Shown in pieces: positions 24,900-35,677 of a stretch of DNA of 64,000 nucleotides (position 1 is the stretch's first letter; the number at the start of each line of letters is the position of its first letter). Location of the stretch: positions 1-64,000 of the forward strand of contig DASXGW010000004.1 of NCBI GenBank assembly GCA_036488875.1. Direction: 5' to 3'. The stretch is from Candidatus Baltobacteraceae bacterium. GTDB taxonomy: Bacteria; Vulcanimicrobiota; Vulcanimicrobiia; Vulcanimicrobiales; Vulcanimicrobiaceae. The position numbers and the translations under genes are program-made. Below the pieces are notes generated by a model. That model searched no databases and was not told where the DNA came from. It was given only the letters and a program-made list of their open reading frames with translations.

Positions 24900-25050
24900 G
24901 TTGGCTTTGGCTGCGGTACCCCCTCACCGGCCGGGGACGCGCGCCTTTTCGCCTCGTGCGAAAGGCTACTAGTTTCCTCTGAGCTCTCGCCATCCGTGGC
25001 TCCGCTCAGACTTCTCGCGGATAAGGTGGTTCCTCGCCGACGGGCCACCA
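24900..25050 (-). promoter_or_regulatory. Candidate structured 5' leader of the M48-RDD gene
   Basis: No gene is seen in 24884-25179. On the minus strand the stretch can form several strong helices: GGTGG/CCACC (25025-25029 with 25045-25049), a 7-bp perfect stem between 25004-25010 and 24978-24984, and a 9-bp stem with one bulge between 24958-24966 and 24943-24952. No known riboswitch consensus could be matched by eye. The region also holds the palindrome GGGGATCCCC (25130-25139) and an AT-rich run with repeated ATAACT before the next gene. Confidence 0.35.
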
Positions 25051-25179
25051 AAGTCTTTGGGAAGCGTGGCGGGAGCAGCTAAGCATTGAAAGGGTACTCC
25101 TTTTAACGCAGGCGGGTCCGTACACACGTGGGGATCCCCGCGCTTGCTAAAACTGCTAATAACTGATAACTAATAACAA

Positions 25180-25392
25180 ATGCGTAAGGGCGCTGAGTCC
25201 AGTGGCTTCGTCCCGATATGCGTGAGCGTTACACCTACGCGGCGTGGCGAACTCCGCGACCTGGCGCAGCGGCACGACACGTCGGTAAGTGCCATTGTGA
25301 ACGCCGCTTTGGACGATCTGCTCGCTGTCCAAAAGTACGAGGACGTAAAGGGGCGATTGGACAGTGCGCCATTGCGAAGGCCAAAGGCGTAG
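25180..25392 (+). CDS. Ribbon-helix-helix (CopG-like) small DNA-binding protein
   Basis: 70 residues. A short beta strand (VPICVSVTP) is followed by two helices, TRRGELRDLAQRHDTSVSAIVNAALDDLL, the CopG/Arc ribbon-helix-helix pattern used by antitoxins and plasmid regulators. It heads a run of same-strand genes (ASCH, PIN-GNAT fusion, kinase) separated by 30 bases or less or overlapping, so it is the likely autoregulator of that unit. Confidence 0.62.
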   Translation: MRKGAESSGFVPICVSVTPTRRGELRDLAQRHDTSVSAIVNAALDDLLAVQKYEDVKGRLDSAPLRRPKA

Positions 25393-25422
25393 CGCGTGCA
25401 GACTGACAGAGGAGTACAGCTA

Positions 25423-25848
25423 GTGCTAGACCTATCGGATCGTGACGTGATCTTCAGTATCAAACCGAAATACGCCGACCGCATCATGGAGGGCGTGAAG
25501 ACGGTTGAGCTGCGTCGTCGCTTCGCTAACGAGGCGCCGATCGGGGCTCGCGCGTTCATCTATTCGTCGGGGCCGACGAAAGCAATGCTCGGCTATGCGA
25601 TCATCGCTGACGTCCGACGTCTCCGACTAGAAGACATCTGGAACCAGTACGCCGGCGCGGCCTCCGTCTCAAGGACGGAGTTCGACGCATACTTCGACGG
25701 ACTCACACACGGATACGTCATCGCGCTCCGCGATCCGCGACGTTTCAAGAAATCTGCCTCGATAACGTACCTTCGCGAGCGGTTCGGGTTTCGCGCACCC
25801 CAATCGTATCGGTATGCCGGGATCGAGTACCGCGTGTTGATCGGATAG
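25423..25848 (+). CDS. ASCH-domain protein
   Basis: 141 residues from the GTG at 25423, chosen because AGAGGAG lies 8 bases upstream; a GTG at 25396 adds nine residues without such a site. The PUA-like/ASCH pattern is clear: VIFSIKPKYADRIMEGVKTVELRRRF, IGARAFIYSSGPTKAMLGYAIIADV, and FDAYFDGLTHGYVIAL. ASCH and PUA-like domains bind RNA or modified nucleotides. One base separates it from the PIN-GNAT fusion gene. Confidence 0.8.
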   Translation: MLDLSDRDVIFSIKPKYADRIMEGVKTVELRRRFANEAPIGARAFIYSSGPTKAMLGYAIIADVRRLRLEDIWNQYAGAASVSRTEFDAYFDGLTHGYVIALRDPRRFKKSASITYLRERFGFRAPQSYRYAGIEYRVLIG

Positions 25849-25849
25849 C

Positions 25850-27358
25850 GTGGCGCAGGGGCGGTCGTTCCTCATTGATACGAACGTCATCATTCAACTC
25901 GAAGACGACAAGCCTGTCCAGGCCAAGTTCTCGGAGATGGTGCGGCGCGCCCAGGAAAGTGGCGTGACACTTTACGTTCACGAGGCCTCCGAAGAAGATA
26001 TCAGACGCGATAAGGATGCAGCGCGTCGAGATGTCACGTTATCGAAGATCGCCAAGTTTCCCCGGATCTCCAACGTACCGATGCCTCCCGAACTTGTGCT
26101 CGAGAGCCGCTTCGGCAAGGCGGCGAACGATCACGACCGCGTCGATGTCCAGATGCTAAATGCGCTCGATCGAAAGGTCGTCGATTTCCTCGTTACGGAG
26201 GATCTCGGCCTGCATCGTCGAGCGAGAAACGCTGGTTTCCAGGACCGCGTCCTGCGCGTACGCGACGCGGTCGATTGGCTTACGCGCACGTTCGAGCCGG
26301 CGGCGGTGCCGCTTCAGCACATCGTCGAGAAAAAGTGCTATCAGCTCGACAGAAGCGACCCCATCTTCGACACGCTTCGCGACGGTTACCCCGAGTTCGA
26401 CGAATGGATAGACCGAAATCCGCAGCGCGCTTGCTGGTGTCTCGAAGTCGACGGCGCGACGGCGGGAATCGTCATCCGCAAGGACAACGAATCGCGTGCC
26501 GAAACCGATGCAACGTTGCCGGGCGACAAGATCCTGAAAGTATCGACGTTCAAGGTCAAGGAAGAGTACCGCGGCGAGAAGTTCGGGGAGCATCTTCTCA
26601 AGCAAATCTTGTGGTACGCGCAACGCAACCGATATGACCTCGTTTACCTGACCGCATTCAAGGAACAGCAGGAAGTGCTTGCCGACCTGCTCGTTCAGTA
26701 TGGCTTCAAGGAAACGGGCACCAAGAAGAGCACGGGCGAAACACTTTACGAAAAGCAGATGTATCGCGGGCCAGTTCGCGCCGTCGGCGTTCCGCTCGGC
26801 GACGACTACGCGCAATATCCTTGCTTCCGTGAGGATAACAAGGTGAAGGTGCTTTGCGTCCCGATCCAACCGCGGTGGTATCGGGTGCTCTTTCCAGAAA
26901 ACGCGCCGGAGCCGCTTTTGCTTCCCGGGCACCATCAGGGCGGCGCGGAACGAACGCCTGGTAACACCATTCGCAAGGTGTACCTCTGCAAGGCGCAGAT
27001 GCGTAATGTTAATGCAGGCGACGTTCTGCTTTTCTACATGTCCGGCAACGAAATCGGCTCTGGAGCTGTCCGAACCGTCGGTATCGTCGAGAACTACCGC
27101 GAGATCTACGGCGCGGAAGACTTGCTGCGCGCTACGGGCCGCCGATCCGTGTATAGCGCCGACGAGCAGATGGACATGATCAAAGGCTCACCCGTCAAGG
27201 TCCTCGACTTTCTGCTCATCGGTCACCTCGACGATCCAATTCCGCTGGGGCTTCTCAATGCCACCGGCGCGATCAAAGGGGTGCCGCAGAGCATCCGGAC
27301 AGTCGACAAGACCGCGTATGCGCAGCTGGGCGTTCACGAGAACCTCGGATACGCATGA
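25850..27358 (+). CDS. PIN nuclease - GNAT - PUA/EVE-like three-domain fusion
   Basis: 502 residues. Residues ~5-135 are a PIN domain (FLIDTNVIIQLEDD at the first acidic strand; VDFLVTEDLGLHRRARNAGF at the last). Residues ~170-305 are a GNAT domain (KVSTFKVKEEYRGEKFGEHLLKQILWYA, LLVQYGFKETGT). Residues ~345-495 resemble a PUA/EVE/ASCH domain (NAGDVLLFYMSGNEIGSGAVRTVGIVENY). An RNase, an acyltransferase and an RNA- or base-reading module in one chain suggest RNA targeting. The stop overlaps the kinase ATG by ATGA. Confidence 0.8.
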   Translation: MAQGRSFLIDTNVIIQLEDDKPVQAKFSEMVRRAQESGVTLYVHEASEEDIRRDKDAARRDVTLSKIAKFPRISNVPMPPELVLESRFGKAANDHDRVDVQMLNALDRKVVDFLVTEDLGLHRRARNAGFQDRVLRVRDAVDWLTRTFEPAAVPLQHIVEKKCYQLDRSDPIFDTLRDGYPEFDEWIDRNPQRACWCLEVDGATAGIVIRKDNESRAETDATLPGDKILKVSTFKVKEEYRGEKFGEHLLKQILWYAQRNRYDLVYLTAFKEQQEVLADLLVQYGFKETGTKKSTGETLYEKQMYRGPVRAVGVPLGDDYAQYPCFREDNKVKVLCVPIQPRWYRVLFPENAPEPLLLPGHHQGGAERTPGNTIRKVYLCKAQMRNVNAGDVLLFYMSGNEIGSGAVRTVGIVENYREIYGAEDLLRATGRRSVYSADEQMDMIKGSPVKVLDFLLIGHLDDPIPLGLLNATGAIKGVPQSIRTVDKTAYAQLGVHENLGYA

Positions 27359-27904
27359 AGACGATCGGCGTATTGAATCTCCGGCGTCGGCAAGACCACG
27401 TTCATCAACGTGCTCATCGCGAAACAGCCGAGCTGGCTCGGGATTTCCGCGGGCACGCTCCTCCAGGAACGCCTCACTGACGTCGCCCGCGACGCGCTTC
27501 GGGTTTGCACGGAGGGCGGCATCCTAAGCAATCAGGAGATCATCGTCCGTGGCCTATCAACTTGGCGGATGAGAACCGAATGCGATGCAGTGTTCTTCGA
27601 CGGACATCTTCTCATCGATACCGATTCCGCAATCGTAGAAATTCCTTACGATGTCATCCGTCGCCTCGAACTTGATGCCATGGTCTTCGTGCACGAAGAG
27701 GCGGCCGAAATTGAGCGACGAAAGGCGAACGATGCGAGCCGTATGCGAGCCTTTCGCTCGAAAGAATGGCTTGCCGCAGAGCAACAAAAGGCAATGAAGC
27801 TGGCCGAGCAGTATGCGCGAGAACTACGCATCCCACTATTTATTGTAAGGTCGGATGAGGCTGCTGATGTCCAGGCCAGAATCGCCTCTCTCGTCATCCA
27901 ATGA
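27355..27904 (+). pseudogene. P-loop nucleotide kinase (archaeal adenylate-kinase-like), frameshifted near its start
   Basis: The ATG at 27355, overlapping the fusion gene's stop, reads MKTIGVL. The P-loop ISGVGKTTF (from 27377) and everything after it are in another frame, with TGA at 27374-27376 just before it. Restoring one reading gives a ~180-residue kinase: P-loop, LGISAGTLLQ, DAVFFDGHLLIDT, LDAMVFVHEEAAEIERRKAND, IPLFIVRSDEA, similar in layout to AdkA-type kinases. A small indel in 27358-27376 has broken the gene, or the assembly has an error. An internal GTG at 27410 would lack the P-loop. Confidence 0.75.
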
Positions 27905-27984
27905 ATCGGCGCGGAAGCGTCCGTATTTATGTCGAGTAGCGAGGGCCGGGTGTGGTGTGGGAGATGTCTCTTGCGTCGGGGTGC

Positions 27985-28893
27985 CTAGCCCTCGAGGTCG
28001 CTAAGAAGGTTGTAGTTTGCGAAGCCCATCTCAGGCGAACTTTGGCCGGGCTCCCTTTTTGCAAAAAAGCTTTGTTGTTTCACCACGAACGGGTCATAAA
28101 GCGGGCTGCGGCCCCCGCGTTTTTCGAGCCATAGTTTGTACCCAGCTATGTCTGGATCGGCATAACCGATCGCATACTCCGTGCCGAATAGACACAGCAC
28201 TGAATACACCGATGCCTTTTCGGGCGCCAGCCAAATCAAGAGCGGCGTCCATTCCCAGACGAGCTGCTGTGCATTCGATACGAGCGAAAAAAACGGCTGG
28301 TTCTCACCGTAGATCGTCCGCTCACCGTACTCCCAGTTGCCGCCGGAGCCGCGCCGCGCCCAGTTGCGAATGGGATCGAACTCAACGTTGTCGATGATAA
28401 ACGTCTCCCAAGAGTCCCTAACCATTACGCGACCCGTCAGCATACCCAACGCGATCTTCGCCAGCAGTCTACTCATGAGGGTCCTATTCTGCAACTCTTC
28501 GAGCCGCGGTACGATGCGGATTGATCGCGGATTGTCTATCACCCGCTGAAAAATGTCGGGAGTTACATCCAATTGGGGAATGCGAACCTTGTGGCGGGGA
28601 GGCGGCATCTGCATCGTCCCTGGGCGTCGCAGCCCATCCGTCAGGTCAGCGACTACCATCCCTGACCGCGGTATGTGCCCTTTCTTACTCTCCACGCGCT
28701 GTCGTCCGCGAAGATCGCTGAAAAACGGCTCCGCGAGAAGCGGTTGTTCGATCTTCCTCGCGAAATAGTTGTTGCAGCCGTCGCAAACGACGCCTCGCGG
28801 AAGCACAGCCTTCGAATTTCCGAGAGACTCCGGAATGACATGCTCGACGCTGCTCGAGCGGTCCGAAGTCTCCTTGCAAAAAATGCATCGCAT
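27985..28893 (-). CDS. HNH-type endonuclease-like protein
   Basis: 302 residues. The N-terminal zinc/HNH segment is CIFCKETSDRSSSVEHVIPESLG followed by GVVCDGCNNYFARKIEQPLL: two CxxC pairs, the EHVIP histidine and the DGCNNYF asparagine, as in HNH_5-like proteins. The remaining ~240 residues match no family I know (VWEWTPLLIWLAPEKASVYSVLCLFGTEYAIGY). It is convergent with the kinase pseudogene and probably belongs to the same accessory island. Confidence 0.72.
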   Translation of the reverse strand: MRCIFCKETSDRSSSVEHVIPESLGNSKAVLPRGVVCDGCNNYFARKIEQPLLAEPFFSDLRGRQRVESKKGHIPRSGMVVADLTDGLRRPGTMQMPPPRHKVRIPQLDVTPDIFQRVIDNPRSIRIVPRLEELQNRTLMSRLLAKIALGMLTGRVMVRDSWETFIIDNVEFDPIRNWARRGSGGNWEYGERTIYGENQPFFSLVSNAQQLVWEWTPLLIWLAPEKASVYSVLCLFGTEYAIGYADPDIAGYKLWLEKRGGRSPLYDPFVVKQQSFFAKREPGQSSPEMGFANYNLLSDLEG

Positions 28894-29560
28894 ATTGTCA
28901 GTACTCCCCGCGTGCCATCAGTCGAGCGTCTCCCATGGATTCGAACTGCGACGCTGTGCGAAGCCACTACTTGCCTAGACGGCGCTGCTTTCCATGTCCT
29001 CCACGATCCTACGTTCCTAAGGCTCCATGCTGCTCTTGTACCGAAGCCGCGTCTTGTTAGACGGGAGTCTATGGTGAGGGCGATCGACCCATTGCGTAGT
29101 GCTGAATCACCATTTCCCGGTAGAGAGCTGCGCGTCGAAGGCTGCGTTCACTGCTACTTGGCGACTCAGAAGTCCTGACACTGTGAGAGCATAGGTCGAA
29201 TCAGGTCGCACGGGACTTGCTGCCAGACGCGCCGCACCTCGTGTAGTTCTGGGTGGAACGAATCGGTTAGAATTACGCTTGCACAAGGTTGCTCGAACCC
29301 CAAATTGTACCGTGGGCGCAGGCGCTGGGCTCGGGTTGGAAGTTCGGCGGCAAGCACCACATGGGTCAAGAGCGGTCGAAGCCGGCCCTCATAATCTTGC
29401 AGAGATCTTCTCGCACGCAGTACAGGCTGATGAGCTCCGAAAAACGCTCGGGCATGGACCGACGACGTCGCTTGTCCAAAGTTCACCCCGCGGGCAACGC
29501 CCCGAATGCGTTCTAGCCGTGCCAGCGACGCATTTTCTGGGCTTTTCTCACAAAGGGGGG
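28894..29560. other. No convincing gene (about 670 bases)
   Basis: Short frames exist on both strands (for example 29166-29486 on minus) but none has a ribosome site, recognisable domain or steady GC-rich third positions. The sequence 28934-28943 reads GGATTCGAAC, the complement of a tRNA T-loop-like string, but no tRNA can be folded around it. The region may be decayed accessory DNA at the island's right edge. Confidence 0.5.
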
Positions 29561-29646: not shown

Positions 29647-29766
29647 ATGACCCGGTTCACGACCGCCCGCCCCGACTCCGAGATGGCCCGCGAGGCCCGT
29701 ACCCCCGTCCGTCTTCCCGAGCAGATGTCTGCCGGTTTGTTCCAAGGCTGGGGCCCGAAGTTCTAA
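29647..29766 (+). CDS. 39-residue peptide with C-terminal GWGP motif
   Basis: The frame begins MTRFTTARPDSEMAREARTP, continues VRLPEQMSAGLF, and ends QGWGPKF. AAAGGA lies 8 bases before the ATG. It is the first gene after the strong operator-controlled promoter and 15 bases before the GntR repressor gene. The charged first half and the Gly/Trp tail resemble a leader plus core. The GWGP tail recurs in the unlinked peptide at 19452-19580. It could be the exported or sensed peptide of the ABC system, a RiPP precursor, or a small regulatory protein. Confidence 0.65.
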   Translation: MTRFTTARPDSEMAREARTPVRLPEQMSAGLFQGWGPKF

Positions 29767-29781
29767 GGTTCCGCAACTAAG

Positions 29782-30189
29782 ATGCCGGCCGTACTCACGG
29801 TCGATCCGCGCAGCGGAGTTCCGATCTACTTGCAGATCATCGAACAGGTCAAGCGATCCGTCGCTCTGGGGATCCTGCAAGCCGGCGAGCAACTCCCAAC
29901 CGTCAAGCAGCTCGCGCTGGATCTGACCGTCAACCCCAACACCGTTGCGCGAGCGTATCGCGAACTCGAGCGCGACAGCGTGATCGAAACCTCCCCCGGA
30001 CGGGGCTCGTTCGTCCGCGGTAACGGTGTGGCGTCTTCGGCTAAAGCCGCCGCGAACGACGTCGCACGCGACGCCCTCGACTCGGCGCTCCGCGAAGTCA
30101 AATCGGTCGGACTCTCTCGCAGCGACCTGCGCGAACTCATCGATGCCGCCGTTAACCGGTGGTTTCCGGAGGAACAGCAGCTTCCATGA
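29782..30189 (+). CDS. GntR-family transcriptional regulator, YtrA subfamily
   Basis: 135 residues. The winged helix VPIYLQIIEQVKRSVALGILQAGEQLPTVKQLALDLTVNPNTVARAYRELERDSVIETSPGRGSFV is the diagnostic YtrA/GntR sequence, with only a short C-terminal helical tail and no ligand-binding domain. Such repressors normally control the ABC transporter genes beside them. The stop overlaps the ATPase start by ATGA. Confidence 0.9.
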   Translation: MPAVLTVDPRSGVPIYLQIIEQVKRSVALGILQAGEQLPTVKQLALDLTVNPNTVARAYRELERDSVIETSPGRGSFVRGNGVASSAKAAANDVARDALDSALREVKSVGLSRSDLRELIDAAVNRWFPEEQQLP

Positions 30190-31100
30190 GCACGATTCAA
30201 ATTTCACACCTGCGCAAAACGTACGGAACGTTTGCGGCCGTTGACGATCTGTCGCTGGAAATTCCAAGCGGTACCGTTTTCGGTCTGCTCGGGCCCAACG
30301 GCGCCGGTAAAACGACGACCTTTAAATGCATGCTCGACTTGGCGCGCGCGAACGACGGCACCGTTCTCTACGACGGGAAGCCGCTCGTGCCCGAAACGTT
30401 CGAGCGCATCGCCTACGTTCCCGAGCGCAGCGTTCTGTACGAATGGATGAACGTCGCCGAACACGTCGAGATGAACCGGCGGGCGTTTGCGAAGTTCGAT
30501 CCCGCTCGCGCCGCCGAGTTGCTGACGGCGTTCAGCATCGACCGGCGTAAGAAGACGCGCACGCTCTCCAAAGGCATGCGCACCGCGGTGATGGTTGCGA
30601 TGGCCTTTGCTCGCAATGCCGATATCCTGATTCTCGACGAGCCGACCAGCGGGCTCGATCCGGTCAATCAGCGCCACGTGCTCAGCCTCATCATCAACGA
30701 AGCGGCGCGTGGGTGCACGATCCTCTTCTCATCGCATCAGATCGGCCAAGTCGAACGCGCGGCCGAGCAGATCGCGGTCGTCGATAAGGGACGGCTCATC
30801 CTGCAAGGCGCAGTCGACGATCTCAAAGCCGATCGCAAAATCGTCGAGGGCATCCTGCCCGACGCAAACTATCCGCTCAACGGCATCGCGGGCGATTCGC
30901 GCGTGCTGCGCGCGGATCGTACCGAGCGCATCGTGCGGCTGCTCGTGGGCAGCGACGCAGACGCCATCGCCGCGCAGCTCACCGCCGCCGGCGCAAGCGG
31001 CGTGCGCGTCGTCGACCTCAACCTCGAAGACATCTTCCTTTACGCGGTCTCGCCGGCGGACGCAACGGCAGACGTGATCGCCAGGGAAAACGCGCAATGA
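30186..31100 (+). CDS. ABC transporter ATP-binding protein
   Basis: 304 residues from MSTIQISHLRKTYGTFAAVDD. Walker A is GPNGAGKTT, the signature loop is LSKGMRTAV (a common LSGGQ variant) and Walker B is ILILDEPTSGLDP; a C-terminal extension of about 80 residues is typical of YtrB/CcmA-like exporters. It energises the two downstream permeases. The ATGA overlaps on both sides show translational coupling. Confidence 0.92.
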   Translation: MSTIQISHLRKTYGTFAAVDDLSLEIPSGTVFGLLGPNGAGKTTTFKCMLDLARANDGTVLYDGKPLVPETFERIAYVPERSVLYEWMNVAEHVEMNRRAFAKFDPARAAELLTAFSIDRRKKTRTLSKGMRTAVMVAMAFARNADILILDEPTSGLDPVNQRHVLSLIINEAARGCTILFSSHQIGQVERAAEQIAVVDKGRLILQGAVDDLKADRKIVEGILPDANYPLNGIAGDSRVLRADRTERIVRLLVGSDADAIAAQLTAAGASGVRVVDLNLEDIFLYAVSPADATADVIARENAQ

Positions 31101-32158
31101 ACTACGTTGAGTGGCTGCGCGTTCGCGGTTGTCTAAAGTGGACGGCCATCGTTCTGGCGGCGTGCGTTGCGCTGGTGCTGTTCGCGCGGTTTACGTATCT
31201 CGATATCCGTCCCAACGCGCACGGCTTTTCGGGCATCTTCATCGACGAAAAGGATTTGCCCGACTTCGAATCCACTTCAAACAAGACGCAGGTCAAGCTT
31301 CCGGATGGGACGTTACGCACCATCATCAATAATGCCGCCACCGGCACGCGCATCACGATCGACGACCATGGCTACTGGGGCAAGCACGTCGAAATTTTTG
31401 AAAAGAAACCCGCGAACACGCATTCGTCGAAGATGGATTTCGGCGACGTCCACGCGGAACGTACGTTTGTTGCGGGCGGCAGCCTGGTAAAGATCGATAC
31501 GGGCGCGCTGGTCCCCGAAGACCTCAACTACTATTTCGCTTTTGCAACCCTAGTCGCGCTAATCGTAGCGACGCTCCTAGGCGCACCGTTCGCTCGTGAG
31601 AACGAAGGACACCTCGAGCTCGCGCTCACCAGGCCGGTCACGCGCATCAACTTCGCGCTGCAAACGGTCTTGGCCGACTTCGCGGGTATCGCCGCCGCCT
31701 TCACCATGACCGTGGTGTTTTTGATCGTCGGTCACACGATCTTCGAGGCACCGAACTACACGTACGGTCCCACCGATACCGTCGTGATCGCCATCGGGCT
31801 CGTGGGCGCGTTTGCCTGGTACGGGATGCTCAACGCCTCGACCGCGTCGATGAAGCGCGCGTACGGCGGCGTACTCGGCATCGCGTGGCCCGTTGCGCTC
31901 GGCCTCGGCGGCATCGCTCACGCTCCGCTCGGGGACTCGCCGCTCGCCGAGTTCGTTCACCGAATCGGCTCGACGCTGCTGTGGCTGTTCCCGACGTCGT
32001 ACCTGCACTTCAGTTTCATGTCCGGCATGGGGTCGGAGGAGCACCGCCGCGCGCTGACGGCATCGGTGCCGCCCCAAACCGATCTCGTTATTCTGGCCTG
32101 TCTCGCTCTCGTTTACGGTGCGTTGGCCATCTATCAGTGGCAACGCGTGGAGGCATAA
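31097..32158 (+). CDS. ABC-2-type permease (copy 1)
   Basis: 353 residues with an N-terminal helix, a ~100-residue extracytoplasmic segment and about five further helices (LVALIVATLLGAPFARENEGHLELALTRPV, FAGIAAAFTMTVVFLIVG). The start NYVEWLRVRGCLKWTAI is nearly identical to that of the second permease, showing tandem duplication. The pair probably forms a heterodimer with the ATPase. Substrate unknown; peptide export is an attractive guess from context. Confidence 0.82.
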   Translation: MNYVEWLRVRGCLKWTAIVLAACVALVLFARFTYLDIRPNAHGFSGIFIDEKDLPDFESTSNKTQVKLPDGTLRTIINNAATGTRITIDDHGYWGKHVEIFEKKPANTHSSKMDFGDVHAERTFVAGGSLVKIDTGALVPEDLNYYFAFATLVALIVATLLGAPFARENEGHLELALTRPVTRINFALQTVLADFAGIAAAFTMTVVFLIVGHTIFEAPNYTYGPTDTVVIAIGLVGAFAWYGMLNASTASMKRAYGGVLGIAWPVALGLGGIAHAPLGDSPLAEFVHRIGSTLLWLFPTSYLHFSFMSGMGSEEHRRALTASVPPQTDLVILACLALVYGALAIYQWQRVEA

Positions 32159-32164
32159 ACCGTC

Positions 32165-32317
32165 ATGGAGATCCTTGGAACCAACTTCACCATCTCGCTG
32201 GGCGCCTGGCGCTTACGCTTCGTGCTCGCTATCGAAGACACGGATAGTGTGCCGATGCCCAAACCTCAGGTTCCGCACCGCATGCGCGTCGTTCCGGAAG
32301 ACGAGTACGTCCGCTAG
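32165..32317 (+). CDS. 50-residue small protein inside the ABC operon
   Basis: The frame reads MEILGTNFTISLGAWRLRF, then VLAIEDTDSVPMPKPQVPHRM and ends PEDEYVR. It starts 6 bases after permease 1 and stops immediately before the permease 2 ATG, so it fits the operon exactly. A short amphipathic start is followed by a proline-rich, charged tail. No family recognised; a small transporter subunit or a peptide substrate are both possible. Confidence 0.6.
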   Translation: MEILGTNFTISLGAWRLRFVLAIEDTDSVPMPKPQVPHRMRVVPEDEYVR

Positions 32318-33352
32318 ATGGCCTACGTCGAATGGCTGCGGGTTCGCGGCTGTCTGAAGTGGACCGGAATCGTGCTCGGTGCACTCTTTCTGGTTGCCGT
32401 CGTTTTACGCATCGCGGCAATGGGCGTGGAACACGATTTGAACGGCCGGCTCGACGATATGAGACGCGATCCTGGCTCACAAGTGAGCGAAGTCGTCCTT
32501 CCCGACGGCACGCATCGTACGACGATCTACGATCTCGTCAAGAAGACGCGCGCCGTCATTGACGATCGCGGCTGGAACGGGAAACATATCGTCGTCGACG
32601 ACTGGTCGCCGACGGCCAAAAAAGATTTAACGCGGGATTGGAGGTCCGGAGTCGTACATTTCCGGTTCGAACCCGATCGACACGGTAGAAGCCAGCGTTA
32701 CGACGTTACGATCGACGGGCCGACGCCGCTCTACGTCTACCTCGTGACCGGTCTGATCGTCGCAATGATCGTAGCGACGATCTTGGGGGCGCCGTTCGCT
32801 CGCGAAGCTGAAGGCCACTTGGAGATTGCGCTCACCAAACCCATATCGCGCGAGCTTCTTGCGGTACGAACGATTCTGGCCGATTGGGCCGGCATGGTGG
32901 CGGCCTTTATCGGAGGCAGCGTACTTGCCATCGCCGTCCATGCCATCTTCGACATGCCGCACATTTCGTTTGACGTACGGGATTCGATCGCGTTGGGCGC
33001 GGGCATCTTCGCGCCTTTGGCATGGTACGCGATGCTGGCGGCGGCGACGACGTCGCTCAGGCGGGGCTACGGCGCCGTCCTAGGCTTTGCTTGGCCTGTG
33101 GCGGGCATCGTCGTTGCCCTTTCGGGCATCTCTCCAAACGGCAGTATGGTACTGACCGCCGTACGCGACGGGGCGTGGGCGCTGAGCTTCATCGATCCGC
33201 TGCGCTACATGCACTTCGGCTCGCCGACCACCTCAGTAGCCGGCGGGTTCGTCACAGACGCGACGGCTGCTCGTCACATAGGAATTCTTGCGGCGTTAGC
33301 GCTTGCATACGGTATCGTTGCGATCGTGCAGTGGCGGCGCATCGAAGCGTAG
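32318..33352 (+). CDS. ABC-2-type permease (copy 2)
   Basis: 344 residues, paralogous to copy 1: the same AYVEWLRVRGCLKWTGI start, a charged extracytoplasmic segment (DDRGWNGKHIVVDDW matches DDHGYWGKHVEIFE in copy 1), then LIVAMIVATILGAPFAREAEGHLEIALTKPISREL and further helices. Divergence is greatest outside the membrane, as expected for a heterodimer recognising one substrate. Confidence 0.82.
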   Translation: MAYVEWLRVRGCLKWTGIVLGALFLVAVVLRIAAMGVEHDLNGRLDDMRRDPGSQVSEVVLPDGTHRTTIYDLVKKTRAVIDDRGWNGKHIVVDDWSPTAKKDLTRDWRSGVVHFRFEPDRHGRSQRYDVTIDGPTPLYVYLVTGLIVAMIVATILGAPFAREAEGHLEIALTKPISRELLAVRTILADWAGMVAAFIGGSVLAIAVHAIFDMPHISFDVRDSIALGAGIFAPLAWYAMLAAATTSLRRGYGAVLGFAWPVAGIVVALSGISPNGSMVLTAVRDGAWALSFIDPLRYMHFGSPTTSVAGGFVTDATAARHIGILAALALAYGIVAIVQWRRIEA

Positions 33353-33454
33353 TTCAAAAGTCCCAGCCCGTTAGCAGATACGTACTTACCCTGATGCCGG
33401 CTTGACTGATACCGGTTAACGTGACAGTGGGCCGGATAAGGATGTATCTTCGTA

Positions 33455-33748
33455 ATGGCTAGCTCGAACGAACGCTTCTACGTCCTGGACGAGGGATATA
33501 GGTTAATATTGGCGCCGCCGCCGGCGCCCGACGATCCCATGAACGCGCTTTACGAAGCGACGACGGCCGCCGACGCGTTGCCGCCGGAGATCGACCGCGT
33601 GGTGCGCACGTTGACGAAAGGGTGGGAGCGCGAATCTGCACCTACCGAAGCGTCGGCGTCGGTTCGCGGAATGAACGTGCTCGTTTCGCCGCTTCAGGGA
33701 CCGGTCGGTCCGCATTTCGCCATTCGCGTCGAGCGCGCTATCGCTTAA
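33455..33748 (+). CDS. 97-residue protein of unknown function upstream of TfuA/YcaO
   Basis: The sequence (NERFYVLDEGYRLILAPPPAPDDPMNALYEATTAADALP ... VRGMNVLVSPLQGPVGPHFAIRVERA) looks like a compact PAS-like sensory fold, strand-rich with an aromatic core, but without an effector domain. It is separated from the TfuA gene by ~34 bases that contain the 12-base palindrome TGCAGGCCTGCA (33757-33768). It may be a small signal-binding or peptide-recognition protein for the modification genes. Confidence 0.62.
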   Translation: MASSNERFYVLDEGYRLILAPPPAPDDPMNALYEATTAADALPPEIDRVVRTLTKGWERESAPTEASASVRGMNVLVSPLQGPVGPHFAIRVERAIA

Positions 33749-33782
33749 CATTACACTGCAGGCCTGCATTACCGTGCCGCGT

Positions 33783-34415
33783 ATGAGCGTGCGCTCGCTT
33801 TGCGTTTTCTGCGGTCCTTCGTTGCCGCCGGAAGATCGCGTCGCTCACAACTCCGTAACGTACCTGCGACCGGCCTCTCGCGGAGACGTCGCGCGAGCCG
33901 CCGAGCACTTCGATACGATGCTGATTATCGACGGCGTCTTTCATCACGACCTCGCTCCGACGCCGCGTGAAGTGTACGATGCGCTCGAACGCGTAACAAT
34001 TTTCGGCGCATCGAGCATGGGCGCGCTTCGCGCAGCCGAGTGCGCGCCGTACGGCGCGGTTCCGCTGGGCGCGATCGCGCGGTGGTACGTTCGCGAGCTG
34101 ATCGACGGTGACGACGAGGTCGCGGTGCTCGTCGACCCGGAATCGCAGCGCGCGTTAACGGTACCGAGCGTCAACGTACGGTACGTCGCGAAATTGGGCG
34201 TGCGCCGCGGACTGATGAATCGCCCGGTCTCCGAGGCATGGGTGCGCGATGCGCGCGACATCTTTTACATGGATCGCACGTGGGAGGGCGCCATCGCACT
34301 CGCGCCGCCGAACGTTCGGAGTGCCTTGCACGAGATCGCGAGCGAGGAAGGCGATCTCAAACGTTGGGACGCGCGCTTCGCCCTTCGTTCGGTGCTGAGG
34401 CGTTTAGCGGCATGA
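33783..34415 (+). CDS. TfuA-like protein (YcaO partner)
   Basis: 210 residues from the ATG at 33783; GTG 33774 is an alternative. It opens LCVFCGPSLPPEDR and contains DTMLIIDGVFHHDLAPTPREVYDALERVTIFGASSMGALRAAEC and ...GVRRGLMNR, the defining features of the TfuA core. By established knowledge, TfuA proteins pair with YcaO enzymes to install peptide thioamides (thioviridamide-type RiPPs, McrA thioglycine), probably by handling the sulfur. It overlaps the YcaO ATG by ATGA. Confidence 0.88.
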   Translation: MSVRSLCVFCGPSLPPEDRVAHNSVTYLRPASRGDVARAAEHFDTMLIIDGVFHHDLAPTPREVYDALERVTIFGASSMGALRAAECAPYGAVPLGAIARWYVRELIDGDDEVAVLVDPESQRALTVPSVNVRYVAKLGVRRGLMNRPVSEAWVRDARDIFYMDRTWEGAIALAPPNVRSALHEIASEEGDLKRWDARFALRSVLRRLAA

Positions 34416-35677
34416 CGTTGCGTATGCCCTCATCGGAGCCCAAAGCGCCCGGTTCGTACGATCGCAGCGTTTCGATAGAGAGAACTCTGGCGCTCGTGCC
34501 CGAGCTGCGCAAGCGTTTCGGCATCACGCGGATTGCCGATACCACGCGGCTAGACCGGCCGGATATCCCGACGTTCTCGGCGGTCGTTCCGCACTCGGAT
34601 CTTCTGAGCGTTTTTAACGGTAAGGGTGCGACGCGCGAAGCTGCGCTCGTCAGCGCCGTGATGGAAGCGGTCGAACGCCAAGTCATGGGTGCGCCCTCCG
34701 TTGAGACACACCGCCGCTGCCTGCGCGAAATTAGCCGCGTGCTGGATCTAGACGCGTTGGGACTATTGCCGGAGGCACGCGATCTTGAAGCGGAGTGCGC
34801 GTGGGGCACCGACTTGCTCGGCGGCGATAACGTACCCGTGCCGATGCACGCGATCCAGTGTCCGTGGTACGGGCAGCGCCTCTTTTCGGGTTCGAGCAGC
34901 AATGGCGTCGCCTCGGGAAATACGCTTACCGAGGCGCTCTATCACGGTCTGGCCGAGCTCGTCGAGCGTCACGTGTGGTCGCTGTTCCACGTACGGTGCG
35001 AGCTCGTTCCGCGCTTTTACCGGCGTGGTGCTCCCGATACCGTCGCCGCCGAAATGTTCGCTTTCCCTAGCGGCGATGATTATCTCGACCGACTCGCTCG
35101 CTCCATCGAAGAGGCAGGACTGACGCTGCGCGTGATGATTCTCCAGGAGGACGATCTTCCGGTCGTAGCACTCGCGACGACAGCTGAGCCCGGTTCGGAT
35201 CCGCCGATGGCTCATCAGGGGATGGGATGCAGCCTGTCGCCTGCGCACGCAGTTGGCCGCGCCATCACGGAATGCGTTCAGAGCCGCGTCGTCGACATTG
35301 CGGGAGCACGCGACGATCTATTGCGCCCCGACGATCCTCCGCGAGTCACCGGCGAACATACCCGACGTCCGCGCTTATTGCCGAAGGGTCGCTGGTTTCT
35401 CGACCTGCCGGCGCGCGAGGTGAGGTTGGATCAGCTTCGAGACCGATGCAGCACCGATCTCGCGCACGATTTGCAGCTCGTGCTCGACGTACTACGAGCC
35501 GACGGCCTCGGTCCCGTTATAGCGATCGAGATTTCGCCGGACGATGTCCCCGTTAGCGTCGTTCGCATCGTCGCGCCGAACCTCGAGACTACCTTTAGCA
35601 ACGGTAGAATCGGCCGGCACGGGACGGCGCTTTTTAGCCCATTCCGGATCGTCAAGGAGAAAACGATATGCCCATGA
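34412..35677 (+). CDS. YcaO-family ATP-dependent peptide-backbone-modifying enzyme
   Basis: 421 residues from the ATG that overlaps the TfuA stop. The YcaO ATP/Mg-binding elements are present: SVFNGKGATREAALVSAVMEAVERQ, SSSNGVASGNTLTEALYHGLAELVERHVW, and AHQGMGCSLSPAHAVGRAITECVQSR. YcaO enzymes activate backbone amides with ATP to give azolines, amidines or, with TfuA, thioamides. The immediate partner here is TfuA, so thioamidation is the leading prediction. The 3' end overlaps the small leader-like ORF. Confidence 0.9.
   Translation: MTLRMPSSEPKAPGSYDRSVSIERTLALVPELRKRFGITRIADTTRLDRPDIPTFSAVVPHSDLLSVFNGKGATREAALVSAVMEAVERQVMGAPSVETHRRCLREISRVLDLDALGLLPEARDLEAECAWGTDLLGGDNVPVPMHAIQCPWYGQRLFSGSSSNGVASGNTLTEALYHGLAELVERHVWSLFHVRCELVPRFYRRGAPDTVAAEMFAFPSGDDYLDRLARSIEEAGLTLRVMILQEDDLPVVALATTAEPGSDPPMAHQGMGCSLSPAHAVGRAITECVQSRVVDIAGARDDLLRPDDPPRVTGEHTRRPRLLPKGRWFLDLPAREVRLDQLRDRCSTDLAHDLQLVLDVLRADGLGPVIAIEISPDDVPVSVVRIVAPNLETTFSNGRIGRHGTALFSPFRIVKEKTICP

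Follow-up and report, generated by a model that had tools for sequence, protein, structure and literature searches.

The window analysed here is a 64,000-nucleotide stretch of contig DASXGW010000004.1 from a Candidatus Baltobacteraceae bacterium. It carries four ORFs on the same strand, encoding an RHH-like protein, an ASCH protein, a 502-residue PIN-GNAT-EVE fusion and a kinase whose ORF ends at 27904 (Table 1). These are the four genes named in the initial annotation. All four ORFs exist, and searches of the window proteins against Pfam, NCBIfam and PADLOC, together with structural models, agree with the domains first assigned to them. A convergent HNH_5 endonuclease gene follows, and the whole group sits within an inserted block.

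Table 1. Coordinates of the module, its companion gene and the inserted block (window positions).
Feature	Position	Strand	Evidence
Inserted block, ~4.5 kb where same-genus G001 has ~290 bp	24968..29515	.	Flank alignments, repeat scan
Direct repeat CTAATAAC-N6-CTAATAAC, candidate operator (tentative)	25156..25177	+	2 bases before first start codon
RHH-like small protein, 70 aa, probable operon autoregulator	25180..25392	+	PF20605
ASCH protein (PDC-M11B/GevA homologue), 150 aa, probable antitoxin or licensing partner	25396..25848	+	PDC-M11B; ZmASCH profile
PIN-GNAT-EVE fusion (PDC-M11A/GevT homologue), 502 aa, probable toxin/effector	25850..27358	+	PDC-M11A; AF2 model; invariant PIN residues
Archaeal-AdkA-like P-loop kinase gene, frame break after codon 7 (near 27376)	27355..27904	+	AAA_17; 1ki9 profile
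HNH_5 endonuclease, convergent, within inserted block	27985..28893	-	PF14279, E 6.6e-11

The fusion protein matches the PADLOC model PDC-M11A across residues 6-490 (E 6.2e-120). Pfam recognizes its GNAT domain (PF00583, E 3.5e-6) and, below the cutoff, its EVE domain (PF01878, E 0.005), and returns no PIN match for the window protein; among 63 family members, it assigns PIN_3 to 18 and EVE to 12. An AF2 model of the whole fusion, built from 63 sequences, reaches a pLDDT of 92 and a pTM of 0.89, and its top PDB matches are GNATs and ZmASCH, the latter taken to be the EVE part. When the N-terminal 150 residues are modelled separately, the top matches are PIN folds (Utp23/24, PAE2754, VapC, SMG6, PRORP). 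The PIN residues D10, D54, D99 and D118 are invariant among the 63 sequences, so PIN probably retains nuclease activity. Two features of the GNAT domain are unusual. Its loop reads RGxKxGE, with lysine (K244) at position 4 of the Q/RxxGxG/A motif in 62 of the 63 sequences, and the usual tyrosine before GF is absent, since position 281, aligned with FYRKFGF of Naa50, is L, I, C or V in all 63. The domain may therefore still bind acetyl-CoA, while acetylation by it is uncertain.

The ASCH gene, which has an alternative start at GTG 25423, lies 1 bp from the fusion gene. Its product matches the Pfam ASCH domain (PF04266, E 1.9e-5) and the PADLOC model PDC-M11B (E 8.7e-28), and the family profile finds ZmASCH (5guq) at E 1e-34. 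ZmASCH is the nearest solved ASCH protein; it binds RNA and cleaves single-stranded RNA (PMC5615036). The tyrosine, lysine and serine important in ZmASCH are all present in the window protein. Gene order follows clade, with ASCH upstream of the fusion in the window's clade and downstream in others. Many relatives with ASCH upstream carry an XRE helix-turn-helix fused to it; the window ASCH is unfused and has a separate RHH-like gene upstream.

That upstream gene encodes a 70-residue protein matching PF20605 (Antitox_RHH) at E 2.2e-4, below the curated cutoff. In the family-mate G113 (L011), a small separate ORF before ASCH resembles RHH by eye only, and at the other loci the frames preceding ASCH look mostly spurious, so the RHH gene is seen only in the window and, by eye, in G113. 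The direct repeat of CTAATAAC is unique in the window, where 0.04 occurrences with up to three mismatches are expected, and it is tentatively predicted to be the operator.

The kinase matches AAA_17 (Pfam, E 1.6e-6), and a PDB search with its family profile recovers adenylate kinases of archaeal type (1ki9, E 5e-20). The program-listed ORF, opening at GTG 27410, begins too late to include the P-loop. At its natural start, ATG 27355, the gene overlaps the fusion stop codon (ATGA), as in many relatives; this frame reads MKTIGVL and stops after 41 codons. The shift (TTG A ATC) falls at the codon of the first P-loop glycine, and the P-loop itself, ISGVGKTT(F) from 27377, and the remaining kinase lie in a different frame from the start codon. 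In the listed relatives, a short strand is followed by an in-frame P-loop, typically G[ILV]SGVGK[ST]. Because the other conserved kinase positions are intact in the window, the break looks like a recent mutation or a sequencing error. Either is likelier than programmed frameshifting, for which the site shows no slippery heptamer. The kinase is probably an optional accessory, and the reading frame makes its intact expression here improbable.

The block is an insertion that was acquired horizontally. In the congener G001, which lacks the module, the flanking M48/RDD gene and the GntR-ABC genes adjoin each other. The G+C content is about 0.58 across 26-30 kb and 0.60-0.67 over the remaining window. 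A repeat scan of the block revealed no terminal repeat or target-site duplication, and no integrase or recombinase was seen there. Across the phylum, a full-length or nearly full-length fusion match occurs in only 2 of 149 genomes (G000 and G113); weak PDC-M11A matches, found in 67 genomes, are mostly ordinary GNATs covering profile positions of about 190-292. The module also occurs on plasmids and phages. This distribution bears on the idea that the genes form a housekeeping operon for tRNA modification or RNA repair. GNAT, ASCH/EVE and P-loop kinase domains do occur in RNA metabolism as well. However, such an operon should be inherited vertically and almost universally, and the scarcity within the phylum, the empty site in the congener and the plasmid and phage copies show a different pattern. 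We regard a housekeeping role, tRNA modification included, as very improbable on the grounds of distribution and insertion.

Neighbouring genes provide an independent test of the module, since loci were chosen by fusion-protein similarity. The set comprises 108 genes of the fusion type, taken from GTDB genomes, viral contigs, plasmids and phages, with neighbours counted within 2.5 kb of the fusion gene. A single-sequence scan of genome contigs found no relatives, and an alignment-based scan found 524, of which the best 80 were used, so the sample is biased to close relatives. Within this set, ASCH lies beside the fusion in 108 of 108 loci and the kinase gene in 67, an adjacency beyond chance and the co-conservation that the initial annotation had proposed as its check. 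Two further arrangements were observed. In six rhizobial loci (L003, L004, L005, L046, L049 and L052), the fusion gene is directly followed by another, divergent ASCH gene, which is encoded on the opposite strand and precedes the kinase. At L061, L065, L071 and L072, near the full module, a second gene matches the fusion profile weakly and is too short for three domains.

Phage records suggest which partner is the toxin. A GNAT-EVE or fusion gene occurs in 16 records of the phage collection, always with ASCH, while ASCH occurs in 28 records, of which 12 have no detectable fusion. A type II toxin-antitoxin system is expected to show a toxin that never occurs without its antitoxin and an antitoxin that is sometimes alone. 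The same asymmetry is found here, in 108 of 108 loci for the fusion with ASCH and, in phages, in 16 of 16 fusion records against 16 of 28 ASCH records. Because the fusion always travels with ASCH and ASCH is often alone, ASCH looks like the antidote and the fusion like the toxin. In psiM2, all that is left of the fusion gene is a stretch 100% identical to the last 43 codons of its psiM100 counterpart, and an intact ASCH gene comes next. In the archaeal virus psiM100 (L009), most of the PIN-GNAT-EVE gene falls within a region called "inserted fragment IFa", and the leftover codons in psiM2 (L148) make a deletion from psiM2 more probable than an insertion into psiM100. Phages such as Oenococcus Vinitor-27, Streptococcus Javan523 and MismyG also carry an ASCH homologue with no detectable fusion, and these could be orphan antitoxins or counter-defence proteins.

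The roles could also be reversed, with ASCH acting as a toxic RNase restrained by the PIN-GNAT-EVE protein or by RHH. ASCH could be an active RNase instead of an antitoxin, considering that ZmASCH cleaves single-stranded RNA (PMC5615036) and that the three residues concerned are found here. Yet the 12 of 28 phage ASCH records without a detectable fusion, psiM2 included, would be odd for a toxin that has lost its antidote, and we judge the reversal very unlikely. The conservation of ASCH fits a non-toxic obligate complex as well.

Clustering of all genes neighbouring the module marks the window's HNH_5 gene as one that recurs. A profile detects it at 10 of 103 loci and never more than 1.1 kb away from the fusion gene, even though just 26% of the flanking sequence lies within 2 kb. 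At three Bacteroidales-type loci (L103, L105 and L112), the genes for HNH, fusion and ASCH are packed together as a single operon. This recurrence lends some weight to a modification-dependent defence without an antitoxin, in which EVE and ASCH would recognize modified bases of invading DNA or of its transcripts and steer cutting by PIN, and here also by HNH_5, with ASCH as a second sensor or subunit. The nearby type I restriction systems and the ASCH-HsdS fusion described by Bell et al. (PMC7641849) point the same way, as does one ASCH-HsdS fusion seen here (L096). Against it, phage ASCH often persists without the fusion and never the reverse, and GNAT-EVE forms lacking PIN or HNH are known, such as GevT. 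We consider this a possible but rather unlikely explanation. Less probable again is a joint reading in which a five-gene variant has the HNH_5 DNase as an additional effector, acquired along with the rest, and the GNAT domain, given its altered acetyl-CoA loop and missing tyrosine, is an acetyl-CoA-binding gate on PIN instead of an acetyltransferase.

We favour, as fairly probable, an acquired, inducible toxin-antitoxin or abortive-infection module of the (PIN)-GNAT-EVE plus ASCH kind (PDC-M11, GevTA). Under this proposal, the PIN-GNAT-EVE protein would be the toxic effector, its EVE domain reading a modified base in RNA or DNA and its PIN domain cutting RNA, probably tRNA or mRNA. The GNAT domain might acetylate RNA or aminoacyl-tRNA, or take acetyl-CoA as a cofactor or signal. 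ASCH would bind nucleic acid and restrain the effector until their complex is disturbed, either by an infecting phage or by modified nucleic acid of foreign origin. RHH would repress the operon, a role whose counterpart in many relatives may be the XRE helix-turn-helix on ASCH. The kinase would be an optional accessory, with an intact product unlikely here. The initial annotation's functional reading stands in part: its RNA-targeting toxin or defence direction is supported, and tRNA modification finds no positive evidence here.

Beyond the module, a 39-residue ORF (MTRFTTARPDSEMAREARTPVRLPEQMSAGLFQGWGPKF) at 29647-29766 (+) precedes a stretch (29782-35677) that holds a GntR regulator, an ABC ATPase, two paralogous permeases and, further along, a YcaO gene at 34238-35677. 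Among 41 relatives, up to 17 have similar peptides ending FQGWGP(K/R), many with weak E-values, and several of these share a contig with, and sit near, the same ABC permease. This ORF looks like a member of a RiPP precursor family.

The locus is an acquired copy of an already described, widespread candidate phage-defence or toxin-antitoxin family, whose local variations are a separate RHH gene, an HNH_5 companion and a broken kinase frame. Its first reading as an undescribed system was wrong and is ruled out by the PDC-M11A and PDC-M11B matches and by an operon class already in Bell et al. 2020 (PMC7641849); the phage homologue GevT/GevA is known as well.

Among known systems, VapBC, a PIN toxin often paired with an RHH antitoxin, shares the PIN fold and the upstream RHH gene with the window. 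Unlike VapBC, the window has its PIN domain inside a 502-residue fusion, ASCH lies between RHH and fusion, and the conserved partner is ASCH; VapBC is thus ruled out on architecture, there being no stand-alone PIN directly after a small antitoxin. ZmASCH of Zymomonas mobilis (5GUQ) shares with the window ASCH the tyrosine, lysine and serine for RNA binding and cleavage. It was studied as a single protein, and the text mentions no operon or acetyltransferase partner (PMC5615036).

Escherichia phage PhiR47_2 has a prophage form of the module whose two proteins GenBank annotates as a toxin, GevT, and an antitoxin, GevA (PV340567). GevT is 27% identical to the GNAT-EVE part of the window fusion (E 2e-24) and GevA 30% identical to the window ASCH (E 9e-18), and the two match the PDC-M11 models at E 2e-133 and 7e-52. 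Unlike the window, GevT lacks PIN, ASCH is downstream, and no kinase, RHH or HNH is annotated alongside (PV340567). With L002:3971-5399 as the query, a search of 5,426 complete E. coli genomes found the pair in 274 at ≥99% identity, always on the chromosome, and this E. coli prophage homologue makes the family experimentally testable. A literature search found no paper on the PDC-M11 or GevTA names.

PADLOC lists PDC-M11 as a candidate system only. Its A protein (the fusion) and adjacent B protein (ASCH) are both present in the window and match their models over most of their length, while the window kinase, RHH and HNH_5 match no PDC-M11 model. The optional AAA_17 kinase gene is there and clearly homologous, with its frame interrupted ahead of the P-loop in this assembly. 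The XRE HTH-ASCH fusion is absent and, as an optional feature, does not count against membership.

The closest published description is that of Bell, Wolf and Koonin, who reported (PIN)-GNAT-EVE genes with ASCH, often with AAA_17, as predicted toxin-antitoxin or defence modules, and credited the class to Iyer et al. 2013 (PMC7641849). The window shares with those operons the PIN-GNAT-EVE order, the adjoining ASCH and a downstream AAA_17 kinase gene, and differs in having a separate RHH gene rather than an XRE HTH-ASCH fusion, a broken kinase frame and an adjacent HNH_5 gene. In that paper's text on the (PIN)-GNAT-EVE class, RHH and a neighbouring HNH gene go unmentioned, and HNH appears only as an EVE-HNH fusion (PMC7641849). 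The separate RHH gene and the HNH_5 gene recurring beside the module are thus details beyond the published description. With this locus, a widespread candidate family on which there is hardly any experimental work reaches another phylum, and the analysis brings new clues: a phage pattern that casts ASCH as the antidote, a non-canonical GNAT loop and a recurrent HNH companion.
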